This document shows, in pieces, positions 38,076-41,265 of a DNA stretch of 64,000 nt (the first letter of the stretch is position 1; each line of letters starts with the position of its first letter). The notes beneath the pieces were generated by a model. It was not told the DNA's origin. It saw only the letters and a program-made list of their open reading frames with translations, and did no database searches. Made by a program: the position numbers and the translations under genes. This DNA is from Hyphomicrobiales bacterium. GTDB lineage: Bacteria; Pseudomonadota; Alphaproteobacteria; Rhizobiales; Xanthobacteraceae. The stretch spans positions 62,001-126,000 of the forward strand of contig JAFKKH010000021.1 of NCBI GenBank assembly GCA_017305665.1. The letters are read 5' to 3'.

Positions 38076-38960
38076 ATGGCTCCGGACCCGTCATCCCCGC
38101 CCGTTCTGTTCGACCGCGCCTTGCTGCGTGCGCGGCAAAGCCGTGCAGCCGGACGGGGGCCCGTGACGTTCCTGCTCGATCGCGTCGCAGAGGACATGGT
38201 CGATCGCGTCGCCGCTGTGCTGCGCGATTTTGGGAGGGCGGCGGATGTGGGCACGCCCGGCGATCAGGTACGCCGCGCGCTGACCCCGCGCCTCGGCGAG
38301 ATCGCGGCGGTCGCGCTTCCTGATGACGAGCGCACGCCGCTGACGCTCGAACCGGCGAGCCTCGGTCTTGCCATCTCCGCGCTGGCCTTGCAGTTTGTGA
38401 ATGATCTGCCCGGCGTGCTGGCGCAAATCCGCCGCGCGCTGAAGCCGGACGGCTTGCTGCTCGCGGCCACCCTCGGCGGTGACACGCTGACCGAACTGCG
38501 GCAATCGTTCGCGGCCGCCGAGGCCGAACTCGAAGGCGGTCTCTCGCCGCGCGTCGCGCCGTTTGCCGATCTGCGCGACCTCGGCGCGCTGCTGCAGCGC
38601 GCGGGTTTCGCGCTGCCGGTGACGGATGTCGATCGCGTGGTGGTGCGCTATGGCGATGCGTTCGGCCTCATGGACGATATCAGGCGCATGGGCGCGACCA
38701 ATGTGCTGACCGAGCGCCGCCGCACGCCGCTACGCCGCGCGACGTTGCTGCGCATGGCGCAAATCTATCGCGAACGTTTTGCCGATCCGGACGGCCGCAT
38801 CCGCGCTACCTTCGATATCGTCTGGCTGTCGGGTTGGGCGCCGCACGAGAGTCAGCAGAAGCCGCTCAAGCCCGGCTCGGCGAAGGCGAGCCTGGAAGCG
38901 GCGGTGAAGGGGCGCGCGCCACCCTCCCCTGGAGGGGGAGGGTCGACGCGAATGAAATGA
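38076..38960 (+). CDS. SAM-dependent methyltransferase, NDUFAF5/BioC-like
   Basis: A 294-residue protein. It begins PPVLFDRALLRARQSRA, matching the alphaproteobacterial relatives of NDUFAF5, which hydroxylates a complex I subunit in mitochondria. The motif I region, VTFLLDRVAEDMVDRVAAVL with VGTPGDQVR, is degenerate and lacks the usual GxGxG. Downstream blocks (SLGLAISALALQFVNDLPGVLAQIRRALKPDGLLLAATLGGDTLTELRQSFAAAEAE) are typical. The last 15 or so codons (APPSPGGGGSTRMK) are read from the palindromic repeat that starts at 38921, so the original terminus may have been shorter or longer. Confidence 0.83.
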   Translation: MAPDPSSPPVLFDRALLRARQSRAAGRGPVTFLLDRVAEDMVDRVAAVLRDFGRAADVGTPGDQVRRALTPRLGEIAAVALPDDERTPLTLEPASLGLAISALALQFVNDLPGVLAQIRRALKPDGLLLAATLGGDTLTELRQSFAAAEAELEGGLSPRVAPFADLRDLGALLQRAGFALPVTDVDRVVVRYGDAFGLMDDIRRMGATNVLTERRRTPLRRATLLRMAQIYRERFADPDGRIRATFDIVWLSGWAPHESQQKPLKPGSAKASLEAAVKGRAPPSPGGGGSTRMK

Positions 38961-39061
38961 GCGGCGGGGTGGGGTGACGTTTCATATTGACGTTTCACCC
39001 CACCCCGGCTCATGCCGCGCTACGCGCAACCTTCGCCAACCCTCCCCCTCCAGGGGAGGGT
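38921..39061. repeat. Nested palindromic repeat, empty form
   Basis: Outer 23-base arms, 38921-38943 and 39039-39061, are perfect reverse complements (ACCCTCCCCTGGAG start). Inner 13-base arms CGGGGTGGGGTGA / TCACCCCACCCCG lie at 38965-38977 and 38995-39007, around a loop with two copies of GACGTTTCA. It overlaps the 3' end of the methyltransferase gene and ends 4 bases before the mutT stop. It has the same plan as 39468-40005, but without a gene inside. Confidence 0.88.
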
Positions 39062-39065
39062 AGAC

Positions 39066-39467
39066 TTACATCAACAGATCGATCAGATGCGGGATCAGCG
39101 GAATGTCCGCTGGCGGCATCGGATAGTCGCGCAGCTTGGTGGCTCGGACCCATGTGAGTGTCTGGCCCTCGCGCGCGATCACGTCGCCGTCCCAGCGCCG
39201 GCAGATGTAGAGCGGCATCAGCAGATGAAAGTCGTCGTAGGCGTGGCTCGCGAAGGTTAGCGGCGCAAGGCAGGCTTCTTTCACCGCGATGCCGAGTTCT
39301 TCGTGCAGTTCGCGGATCAGCGCCTGCTCGGGACGCTCGCCGGGCTCGAATTTGCCGCCGGGAAATTCCCACAGGCCCGCGAGCGTCTTGCCTTCCGGCC
39401 GTTGCGCGATCAGCACGCGGTTGTCAGTGTCGATCAATGCACAGGCGACGACGAGGGTGAGTTTCAT
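39066..39467 (-). CDS. mutT: 8-oxo-dGTP diphosphatase MutT
   Basis: A 133-residue Nudix hydrolase that cleans oxidised dGTP from the nucleotide pool. The Nudix box reads GGKFEPGERPEQALIRELHEELGI (about 38-61), in line with GX5EX7REUXEEXGU. The preceding LIAQRPEGKTLAGLWEFPGGK and the C-terminal WVRATKLRDYPMPPADIPLIPHL match MutT. A palindromic repeat begins at the base after the start codon region (39468) and another ends 4 bases from its stop, so the gene sits between two such elements and its own promoter must lie within or beyond repeat DNA. Confidence 0.92.
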   Translation of the reverse strand: MKLTLVVACALIDTDNRVLIAQRPEGKTLAGLWEFPGGKFEPGERPEQALIRELHEELGIAVKEACLAPLTFASHAYDDFHLLMPLYICRRWDGDVIAREGQTLTWVRATKLRDYPMPPADIPLIPHLIDLLM

Positions 39468-40005
39468 ACTTACCCTCCCCTGGAGGGGGAGGGTCGACCA
39501 AGCCGGGCAACGCTCAGCGTTGTCCGGGGCGGTCGGGGTGGGGTGGAGGCTTTGGGTCTTTCGTGGCGCGAGTGCTTCAAGCGGATAGACCCTGCATCCT
39601 CAAATCCGGCGACTTCTGCGATAGCTTGAAGAATGCCTTCCATATTTGTTGCTACATCCGAATTCCAGAATCTCAGCACGCGATAACCCTCAGCTTCCAA
39701 CCATTGTTGTCTTATTAGATCGTGATGCGCTGTGCCGGTTTCGGAATGGTGGCCTCCATCAATCTCAATCACGAGATGCAGCGCTGGACAGAAGAAATCG
39801 ACGATATAGGACCCGATGGGAGCTTGTCGCCGAAAGTGTGTGCCTATGACCGGAAGAGTTTTGAACGCGCGCCACATCATGCGTTCGTGGGGGGTCGTGT
39901 CTTGTCGAAGTCTTCGTGCTCTTGCGCGACGTATGGTTTGCGTAACCATCACCCCACCCCGGACGGCGTTGCCGTCCGACCCTCCCCCTCCAGGGGAGGG
40001 TAAGT
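39468..40005. repeat. Nested palindromic repeat carrying a DUF559 gene in its loop
   Basis: Outer 29-base perfect arms lie at 39468-39496 and 39977-40005, and inner 11-base arms CGGGGTGGGGT / ACCCCACCCCG at 39534-39544 and 39951-39961. The outer and inner arms match the empty element at 38921-39061. Between the inner arms are 406 bases that are almost wholly the DUF559 coding sequence. Secondary hairpins occur between outer and inner arms on both sides (CAACGCT/AGCGTTG; GGACGGC/GCCGTCC). Confidence 0.85.
39470..39949 (-). CDS. DUF559 endonuclease-like protein inside a palindromic repeat
   Basis: A 159-residue protein of the DUF559 / very-short-patch-repair-like fold. Conserved blocks: LRQDTTPHERMMWRAFK, HFRRQAPIGSYIVDFFCPALHLVIEIDGGHHSE and DLIRQQWLEAEGYRVLRFWNSDVATNMEGIL, with acidic residues suggestive of a PD-(D/E)XK nuclease (Asp in YIVDFF, Glu and Asp in VIEIDGGHH). 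The start ATG 39949 abuts the right inner arm of the repeat and the last residues (RLGRPSPSRGG) are encoded by the left arm. Function is unknown; a link to the repeat is my inference from this placement. Confidence 0.85.
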   Translation of the reverse strand: MVTQTIRRARARRLRQDTTPHERMMWRAFKTLPVIGTHFRRQAPIGSYIVDFFCPALHLVIEIDGGHHSETGTAHHDLIRQQWLEAEGYRVLRFWNSDVATNMEGILQAIAEVAGFEDAGSIRLKHSRHERPKASTPPRPPRTTLSVARLGRPSPSRGG

Positions 40006-40023: not shown

Positions 40024-41265
40024 CTACGACCTGTAGTCGCCGTTGATCGCGACGTATTCCTTGGTGAGGTCGCAGGTCAGCACGCGGTCGCGGCCCTTGC
40101 CGAGGCCGAGCGCGACCTTGATCTGGATGGTCGGGCTCTTCATCGCTGCCGAGACTTCAGCCTCGTCATAGGAGGAATCGCGCGCGCCTCGAGTGGCGAC
40201 GCGAATGCCGTTGAAGGAGATGGAGAGCTTGTCGCGATCGGCGGGTTCGCCGGCCTTGCCGACCGCCATCACCACGCGGCCCCAGTTGGCGTCCTCGCCG
40301 GCGATCGCGGTCTTCACCAGCGGCGAGTTGGCGATCGCCATGGCAATCTTGCGCGCCGACGGCTTTGAGGTCGCGCCCTCGACGATCACTTCGACCAGCT
40401 TGCGGGCGCCTTCGCCGTCACGGGCTACCTGTTCCGCGAGGTTGGCAAGCACGCCATGGAACGCCTTGGCAAAGGCCTTCAGCCGCGGATCGCTCGCGCG
40501 CGAGATTTTTGGTGCGCCGTGCGCGGCGGCGGCGCCGGTCGCAAACGCCAGCAAGGTGTCGGACGTGGAGGTGTCGCTGTCGATGGTGACGGCGTTGAAC
40601 GTGTCCTCGACGCCGCTCTTCAACAGCGCCTGCAGCGCCGACGCCGAAATCGGCGCATCGGTGAACACGAACGACAGCATGGTCGCCATGTCGGGTGCGA
40701 TCATGCCGGCGCCCTTGGCCATGCCGTTGATGGTCACGGTGGCCTTGCCGAGCTTCACTTTTGCGGTGGCGACCTTGGGAAAGGTGTCCGTGGTCATGAT
40801 GGCGCGGGCCGCGTCCATCCAGCGGTCCGGGGTGGCTTCCTTCGCCAGCGCATCGAGCACGCCGTTGAATTTCGTCGCGTCGAGCGGTTCGCCGATCACG
40901 CCGGTGGAAGCGAGATAGATGTCGCTCGCCTTGCAGCCGGCGGCCTTCGCGGCGATGTCGGCGGTCAGCTTGGTCGACTGGCGGCCGGTCTTGCCGGTGA
41001 AGGCGTTGGCATTGCCGGAATTGACGACGAGCGCTCGTGCGCCGCCGCCCTTCAGCCGCGCCCGGCACCATTCGACTGGTGCCGAGGGGCATTTCGATTT
41101 GGTGAACACGCCGGCGACGGCGGTGCCCTTGTCCATCAGCGCCAGCAGCACGTCAGTGCGGCCCTTGTAGCGGATGCCGGCGGCGGCGGTCGCGAGGCGC
41201 ACACCCGCGATCGCGGGCATCTCGGGGACGTTGGTGGGGGCGAGGGGTGAGATGGCTGATGACAT
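40024..41265 (-). CDS. argJ: Bifunctional glutamate N-acetyltransferase / amino-acid acetyltransferase
   Basis: A 413-residue ArgJ that makes N-acetylglutamate and recycles acetyl from N-acetylornithine in arginine synthesis. The self-cleavage site is at the Ala-Thr of [17 protein letters not shown] (about 190-206), with the Thr as nucleophile. Flanking family blocks are [40 protein letters not shown] and [16 protein letters not shown]-like VIVEGATSK. The final [16 protein letters not shown] is canonical. It is 18 bases downstream of the DUF559-bearing repeat but transcribed from the other side, so unaffected. Confidence 0.96.

Follow-up and report, generated by a model that had tools for sequence, protein, structure and literature searches.

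The window analyzed here, a stretch of 64,000 nucleotides (nt) from a Hyphomicrobiales bacterium of the family Xanthobacteraceae (contig JAFKKH010000021.1 of assembly GCA_017305665.1, positions 62,001–126,000), carries on its minus strand, at 39470–39952, a gene for a DUF559 protein, which its reading frame, its Pfam match, its fold and its relatives mark as a Vsr-like nuclease of the PD-(D/E)XK type. The gene is enclosed by inverted palindromic arms, and we consider it likely that the DUF559 gene and two inverted BoxC/TM palindromes form one mobile unit, that solitary pairs and single copies of the palindrome are non-autonomous derivatives of that unit, and that DUF559 spreads the repeat. Counted from a GTG start codon (39952), the frame encodes 160 amino acids, with an alternative ATG at 39947–39949. 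The DUF559 domain spans 39614–39928, and the match to Pfam DUF559 (PF04480; E value 3e-34, 117.5 bits) exceeds the gathering cut-off of 20.6, placing the protein in the family.

The left outer arm (39468–39496, plus strand, 29 nt) is 100% complementary to the right outer arm (39977–40005, plus strand), which is its perfect reverse complement, in agreement with the original prediction for this locus. The inner arms, CGGGGTGGGGTG at 39534–39545 and CACCCCACCCCG at 39950–39961 (both plus strand), are also perfect inverted repeats with 100% complementarity, and their length is 12 nt rather than the 11 nt first given. The start codon had been described as abutting the right inner arm; the contact exists, and the GTG in fact overlaps the first three bases of that arm. 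At the other end of the gene the stop codon (39470–39472) lies inside the left outer arm, from which the final codons are translated, as had been predicted. DNA folding resolves each arm into two hairpins and a G-rich block: positions 39472–39494 of the left outer arm form a hairpin of their own (ACCCTCCCC–loop–GGGGAGGGT), the corresponding outer hairpin of the right arm occupies 39979–40001, and a second, intervening stem-loop lies at 39495–39535 in the left arm and at 39960–39978 in the right arm (both plus strand). The left inner arm CGGGGTGGGGTG constitutes a further G-rich block, which may be likened to the third strand of the BoxC/TM motif.

The insertion site is bordered on the left by mutT (39066–39467, minus strand), the gene for 8-oxo-dGTP diphosphatase, and on the right by argJ (40024–41265, minus strand). 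On the other side of mutT, at 38921–39061, inverted-repeat alignment and DNA folding delimit an empty form of the element with the same arms and without the gene, and the gene-less palindrome that had been noted there is therefore real; as single-stranded DNA it folds at -60.5 kcal/mol (z -11.5 relative to 200 shuffles). The window contains four copies of a 22-nt core of the arm, which had no match in any of 100 shuffles. To the left of the empty element, a frame at 38076–38960 that appears methyltransferase-like by eye enters the palindrome, such that its C-terminal residues are encoded by the arm. A search against RNA families returned microRNA models only, far under their gathering scores.

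Elsewhere in the same genome, a 23-mer of the arm occurs in six exact copies: the four in the window, one in a further empty element between genes read as rplT and pheS (locus L010), and a single copy at L009. The second stand-alone DUF559 gene of the genome (L001) also lies inside a palindrome, though not the same one; its arms are 37 nt long and 92% complementary. The two remaining DUF559 matches are contig-end pieces (L003, end of contig C40; L004, end of contig C44) that seem to be one SpoU-methylase–DUF559 fusion gene split over the contig ends. By reading of translations, the neighbors of loaded or empty elements are pheS–pheT (L065), rplT–pheS (L010), ureC–ureB (L001) and recF–dnaN (L214), and an element in another genus (L093) again lies near ureC.

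Judged by their motif, the arms can be assigned to the BoxC repeat, alias PIT element or TM(ECO), a potential intrastrand triplex. BoxC has been known since the 1990s and was rediscovered as PIT and as TM(ECO) (PMC4666352). The arms and BoxC have in common a three-block motif of a pyrimidine block, a loop, a purine block and a second purine block, often arranged as inverted pairs, and published copies from E. coli K-12 such as CCCTCGCCCCTCTGGGGAGAGGGTTAGGGTGAGGGG match the pattern used in the present work (PMC4666352). The usual arm reads CCCTCTCCC–loop–GGGAGAGGG–spacer–GGGTGAGGGG and is aimed at the gene, with a mirror image on the other side; when the 179 loci with arms were oriented by a fixed pattern, the motif pointed inward on both sides at 72 and outward on both sides at 4, the rest being mixed or unmatched. 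The arms thus contain the pyrimidine–purine hairpin followed by the second purine block, while triplex formation is predicted only. The window arms are a variant in which the hairpin CCCTCCCC/GGGGAGGG is followed by an extra stem-loop and then by GGGGTGGGGTG. Such an extra stem-loop, found in many home-family arms, and the link to DUF559 set the present arms apart from BoxC as described. The published account counts 23 copies in E. coli K-12 and describes BoxC as unassociated with transposons, phages or plasmids; its main text nowhere uses the terms endonuclease, DUF or ycjD (PMC4666352). No mobilizer of BoxC/PIT/TM is named in the searchable literature, and a link between DUF559 and palindromes is absent from the titles and abstract openings among the matches listed from the open-licence PubMed Central literature; the main text of the RepRanger paper (PMC12306157) contains neither 'endonuclease' nor 'transposase', and a paper on Bradyrhizobium repeats (PMC5082802) neither 'endonuclease' nor 'giy'. 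The original prediction had named neither this repeat nor the extent of its link to DUF559.

The AlphaFold model of the DUF559 domain has a mean predicted local distance difference test score of 89. Its best matches in the PDB are 3hrl (a Neisseria DUF559 protein), 3r3p (I-Bth0305I) and 4oq2, with 1vsr at a lower rank, and the nearest solved structures include PvuRts1I, Vsr again standing lower in the list. Foldseek yielded E values of 5e-5 to the homing endonuclease I-Bth0305I and 5e-3 to Vsr, and hmmsearch 1.7e-4 to I-Bth0305I. The invariant columns of an alignment of 26 rows include E15, D44, E55, D57, H61 and D70, which we take to be the catalytic residues. The modeled fold and the conserved acidic residues point to a Vsr/EDxHD-like member of the PD-(D/E)XK superfamily. 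The window protein would thereby share its fold with Vsr and with EDxHD homing endonucleases such as I-Bth0305I, neither of which, to our knowledge, has been described as palindrome-bounded or as tied to a genome-wide repeat family.

Among related proteins, YcjD was counted as a PD-(D/E)XK member in 2005 (PMC1189080). Caulobacter VsrA, a PD-(D/E)XK DUF559 protein, is genotoxic and drives the SOS response in a methyltransferase mutant; it differs from the present case in that its activity is read as mismatch repair of 5-methylcytosine sites, and the main text of that paper contains neither 'palindrom' nor 'nickase' (PMC12907096). SpoU-methylase–DUF559 fusions carry the same DUF559 domain (PMC1829167), as Pfam confirmed at seven loci, but lack palindromic arms at all seven; the fusion is probably a domesticated form. 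With regard to a defense role, PADLOC returned weak partial matches only, for two of three proteins.

We evaluated whether DUF559 genes are generally enclosed by inverted arms by means of an arm score, for which the 300 nt on the left of the DUF559 domain were locally aligned with the reverse-complemented 300 nt on its right. The same score at shifted positions within the same loci served as control, and a threshold of 16 was fixed after inspection of the controls in the first set, which comprised 60 loci from the genome, genus and family of the window, five of them with a flank too short for scoring. In this set 41 of 55 scorable loci reach the threshold, compared with none of 329 controls (highest score 15.5). 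Seven of the 14 misses are SpoU-methylase–DUF559 fusions by Pfam; L031 and L036 are partial matches, L015 has a complete domain but no arms that score, and L037, L038, L040 and L060 score below the threshold but contain the same CCCTCTCCC motif. Sixty more family loci were then taken in list order, skipping two obtained before and one too close to the start of a contig; arms were found at 55 of 59 (one locus was unscorable) and at none of 333 shifted controls. In the wider sets, arms were found at 15 of 24 order-level loci (24 scored of 27; controls 1/144; L093 of the further family set is counted here too), at 12 of 29 top matches from the whole phylum (controls 2/174), and, for named genomes of several phyla, at 61 of 76 loci (62/77 including one artefact caused by a run of N; controls 1/578). 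The named loci are the best 80 of 567 from a pattern scan, and those with arms cover Alpha-, Beta- and Gammaproteobacteria, Desulfobacterales, Syntrophales, Rokubacteria, Methylomirabilota, Chloroflexi, Gastranaerophilales and Binatia. Overlap between the sets is slight (L297 is the same DNA as L072, and L254 the same as L048; L302 is close to L060).

All sets together, 4 of 1558 shifted controls reach the threshold, and PIN-domain genes, another small gene family from the same genome sample, are enclosed in 0 of 25 cases (25 scored of 30 loci); the shifted placements and the PIN genes rule out chance and terminator hairpins as an explanation. Within the home family, enclosure by arms is near-universal; it is common among DUF559 proteins like those of our alignment A2, and applies to less than half of the top phylum-wide matches. 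The enrichment check in related genomes, which had been set beforehand, thus gave an overwhelming result (41/55, 55/59 and 61/76 with near-zero controls), and the proposal that loaded and empty loci are two forms of one element is supported. DUF559 is present in 94 of 100 home-family genomes, which makes it one of the most frequent domains of unknown function there.

The type of arm follows the protein. Six arm classes were read from the sequence after the hairpin and coded as regular expressions, which were set after the arms had been read and before the tree was built; the tree rests on the protein domain only, and arms were sought outside the domain. Of 96 family loci, 15 were unclassable, leaving 81 on the tree. 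These require nine class changes, where the minimum possible is five and 500 shuffles gave a mean of 50 and a lowest value of 43; the 38 loci without shared flanks require six, compared with at least 18 in 1000 shuffles. The window gene (class GGAGGGTCG) groups with its own class and a sister class, and L001 with its own class. For the 37 loci from the 15 genomes with several classes, seven changes were found, and the minimum among shuffles within genomes was 11. Because none of 1000 class shuffles confined to the same genome reaches the observed number, the arm class is tied to the protein clade and not to the host, and host phylogeny is ruled out as the cause of the matching. The protein tree is short (108 columns), and 39 of its 78 inner branches are open. 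The original prediction had allowed either that the protein recognizes or processes the palindromes or that it was captured by them; the match between class and clade, also within genomes, favors recognition over chance capture, and recognition and cutting would be the corresponding activities of the protein.

Gene and repeat also co-occur across genomes. We scanned 397 genomes of the window's phylum (Pseudomonadota) with the pattern CCCTCNCCCN{2,14}GGGNGAGGGN{1,31}GGGNGAGGG, and counted DUF559 matches at E ≤ 1e-20. For Y1_Tnp, which includes the repetitive extragenic palindromic (REP)-associated tyrosine transposases (RAYTs), the cut-off was E ≤ 0.001. The reversed pattern, used as a control, gave zero matches in most genomes and a maximum of 26 in one. 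Among the 116 genomes with DUF559, 95 carry the BoxC pattern, compared with 27 of the 281 other genomes (odds ratio 43, Fisher p 2e-45), and at least 10 copies are found in 65/116 and 13/281, respectively. Within families the Mantel–Haenszel odds ratio is 32 (16 families, 214 genomes), and 0 of 20000 within-family permutations reach the observed count; in family f112, for example, the two genomes with DUF559 hold 416 and 247 copies, respectively, and no copy is present in the other eight, which lack DUF559. BoxC is unrelated to Y1_Tnp in the same genomes (62/200 versus 60/197, odds ratio 1.03, p 0.91), the DUF559–BoxC link persists both with and without Y1, and the window's genome has zero Y1_Tnp (PF01797) matches at E ≤ 0.001. 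Y1/RAYT as driver of the repeat is ruled out by the comparison of the 397 genomes and by the window genome lacking Y1.

Evidence that gene and arms have moved together comes from pairs of loci. Thirty pairs passed a filter for homology limited to the element, and three of these were aligned. L039 and L189 lie about 35 kb apart on the same contig and are 93.6% identical over 455 nt from arm to arm, with unrelated flanks. The same arm-to-arm limits bound the homology between L263 and L274, from metagenome-assembled genomes (MAGs) of two phyla (one deltaproteobacterial, the other Dadabacteria), and between L253 and L301, from two gammaproteobacterial MAGs. Direct repeats of at least 4 nt near both ends occur at 5.1% of 178 loci versus 5.9% of shuffled pairs, and target-site duplication was thus not detected; in this respect the unit differs from a classical DDE insertion sequence or miniature inverted-repeat transposable element. 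The protein is under purifying selection, the ratio of nonsynonymous to synonymous substitution rates (dN/dS) being 0.07–0.27 in nine of ten pairs; the tenth pair (L269/L287; dN 0.99, dS undefined) was not used.

Comparison of the mutT–argJ junction covered 30 family loci including that of the window, two of which were unreadable. The two genes abut (gap -1 to 1 nt) at 12 of the 30, two of these in the same genus (L133 and L134), an empty element of the window's arm class is present in one genome of another genus, and the remaining loci hold unrelated palindromes, other DNA or short spacers. A DUF559-like frame was found at the window's locus only, and the same gene at this position in relatives lacking the repeats, which would have spoken against the proposal, was not seen among the 30. 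Because relatives carry other palindromic repeats at mutT–argJ (L130, L135, L145, L146, L151 and L155, one of them from the same genus), the junction appears, by reading, to be a general landing place for palindromic repeats.

A second junction, dnaN–recF, was compared at 70 loci (L328–L397) of genus g24, apparently Bradyrhizobium. The tally is non-random (30 best BLAST matches and 40 loci picked from rows listing both flanks; 98 genomes were searched) and comprises 29 DUF559, 15 GIY-YIG, 23 gene-free and three unreadable loci, L397, which is part of L343, being among the last. Arms above threshold accompany 22 of the 29 DUF559 genes and all 15 GIY-YIG genes, one of which is internally deleted; the GIY-YIG loci include L366–L369, L372, L374, L375, L378, L381, L385, L389, L390, L394 and L396. 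At the 23 gene-free loci, palindromes of several families stand singly or in pairs, or the junction is bare; the states seen are CGTC-type palindromes, GTAGGGTGGG pairs, one single BoxC-type hairpin and bare junctions. Loaded, empty and bare states thus occur at the same junctions.

A sapF–ycjD–fabI query is covered to 80% or more in 3330 of 5426 E. coli genomes; the DUF559 gene ycjD occurs in strain K-12. Use of sapF–fabI as a loaded/empty comparison (loci L123, L125 and L126) was abandoned, as efflux-pump genes replace ycjD in the two ycjD-less genomes that were opened, and these sites are therefore not empty forms. In a publication about the EefABC pump, ycjD is named eight times (PMC12817139).

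A close known parallel is the RAYT–REP/REPIN system. In its 'REPtrons', a single nuclease-type gene likewise lies beside co-evolving palindromes (PMC8266576, PMC3733652, PMC3116915), and in both systems the palindromes are also found as many gene-free copies and as inverted pairs. As in REPtrons, the enzyme gene of DUF559 units lies between palindromes of its own with which it co-evolves, and to that extent the analogy drawn in the original prediction stands. It fails for the enzyme and for the tag: DUF559 has a PD-(D/E)XK fold and not the HUH/Y1 fold that defines RAYTs, and the arms are as a rule without a GTAG or CGTC tag, GTAG being found anywhere in the arms at 25 of 179 loci and absent from the window arms. 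A further difference is that the DUF559 gene and its arms have moved together, whereas mobility of tnpA–REP units is reported to be without evidence (PMC8266576).

A second nuclease shows a similar arrangement. Inverted palindromes surround the small solitary GIY-YIG genes of the family at 46 of 68 scored loci (from L398–L467), with 20/29 in one set (controls 0/174) and 26/39 in the other (controls 0/234). By a fixed motif set, 25 of the 46 arms are of the CGTC type, seven of the CCTCATCC type and 14 of neither, and a BoxC-type motif is found in 0/46 versus 176/179 DUF559 arms. According to the literature, CGTC repeats apparently have no transposase dedicated to them (PMC3733652).

Based on the association of gene and arms, the unit limits in the three aligned pairs, the class matching and the gene–repeat co-occurrence, together with the purifying selection and the lack of a Y1/RAYT link and of a detectable target duplication, the best reading is that of a REP-like mobile unit with its own Vsr/homing-endonuclease-like nuclease, which would resemble RAYT–REPIN in its working without being RAYT–REPIN. 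The data suggest DUF559 as the spreader of the BoxC repeat. In the proposed mechanism, DUF559 (i) would recognize an arm of its own class, probably as a hairpin or triplex extruded on single-stranded DNA during replication, and (ii) would nick or cut at or near this arm, whereupon (iii) repair of the break would copy arm–gene–arm or arm–arm DNA to a new intergenic site without target-site duplication, by a transposition-like or homing-like route. DUF559 would in this way bind and cut the arms and drive the spread of the repeat.

Several observations weigh against this proposal. Binding, cutting and transposition by DUF559 are steps that we infer, and we know of no PD-(D/E)XK nuclease that joins DNA ends unaided. 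Scoring arms are lacking at 17 of 29 phylum-wide, 9 of 24 order-level and 15 of 76 named loci, the last including L267 (Serratia), L326 (Legionella shakespearei) and L313 (Methylophaga), seven of the 29 loaded dnaN–recF junctions have sub-threshold arms, and the one E. coli ycjD locus that was read has an inverted BoxC pair downstream of the gene and not around it. Across genomes, 21 with DUF559 lack the strict BoxC pattern, and 13 without a strong DUF559 match have at least 10 copies, two of them more than 90. The overall correlation between protein and arm distances is weak (rho 0.12; the largest of 999 permutations gave 0.158), and the agreement of protein and arm is limited to close relatives and discrete classes. 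The stretch shared by L039 and L189 extends about 20 nt past the hairpin at its left end. Finally, many loci have flanks in common with relatives, and movement is therefore not frequent everywhere.

Of the alternatives, homing is a possible one, to which we give tentative weight: the nuclease would cut empty palindromes or bare sites, repair from a loaded copy would follow, and the gene alone would jump between existing palindromes. The homing endonuclease I-Bth0305I is among the closest solved relatives, loaded, empty and bare states share junctions, target duplication was not found, and homology ending at the arms is also expected from conversion into existing arms. However, the bare mutT–argJ junctions of the two same-genus genomes (L133 and L134) suggest gain at an arm-less site, the arm class tracks the protein and not the host, a match that conversion into foreign arms would blur, and homing alone does not explain hundreds of gene-free copies (416 pattern matches in genome G443). 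It is unlikely that DUF559 instead serves host maintenance, acting as a repair nuclease of the Vsr type that keeps damage at triplex-forming repeats in check and is retained where these are frequent, without spreading them. Purifying selection, the SpoU methylase fusion in seven relatives and the co-occurrence of gene and repeats would fit such a role, which does not, however, require the gene to lie inside the repeats, to match them in class or to move with them.

That the gene is a passenger, cargo caught between two palindromes that a RAYT/Y1 or other, unknown transposase moves, we regard as very improbable. A link to RAYTs is known for REPs of other families (PMC3733652, PMC2817692), but the window genome and the unrelatedness of Y1 and BoxC in the 397 genomes speak against a Y1 enzyme, and cargo would be expected to be varied and not class-matched, and PIN genes were enclosed in 0 of 25 cases. 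Coincidence with ordinary GC-rich terminator hairpins or common intergenic repeats is refuted by the controls and has a negligible probability in our view; palindromic repeats are indeed frequent at the same junctions in relatives, yet neither the shifted controls and the PIN genes nor the class matching are compatible with it.

If DUF559 does spread its repeat, the repeat and the nuclease are each explained by the other, and both can be tested directly in E. coli K-12. If it is true that a repair-type nuclease alone drives a repeat family, a transposase would be dispensable for bacterial mini-elements. The GIY-YIG pairing suggests a general principle, and we see an even chance that there is a general class of small solitary nucleases of unrelated folds, each of which would spread one palindrome superfamily (DUF559 the BoxC/triplex repeats, GIY-YIG the CGTC repeats and RAYT the GTAG repeats) by cutting hairpin DNA that host repair then joins, without transposase chemistry.
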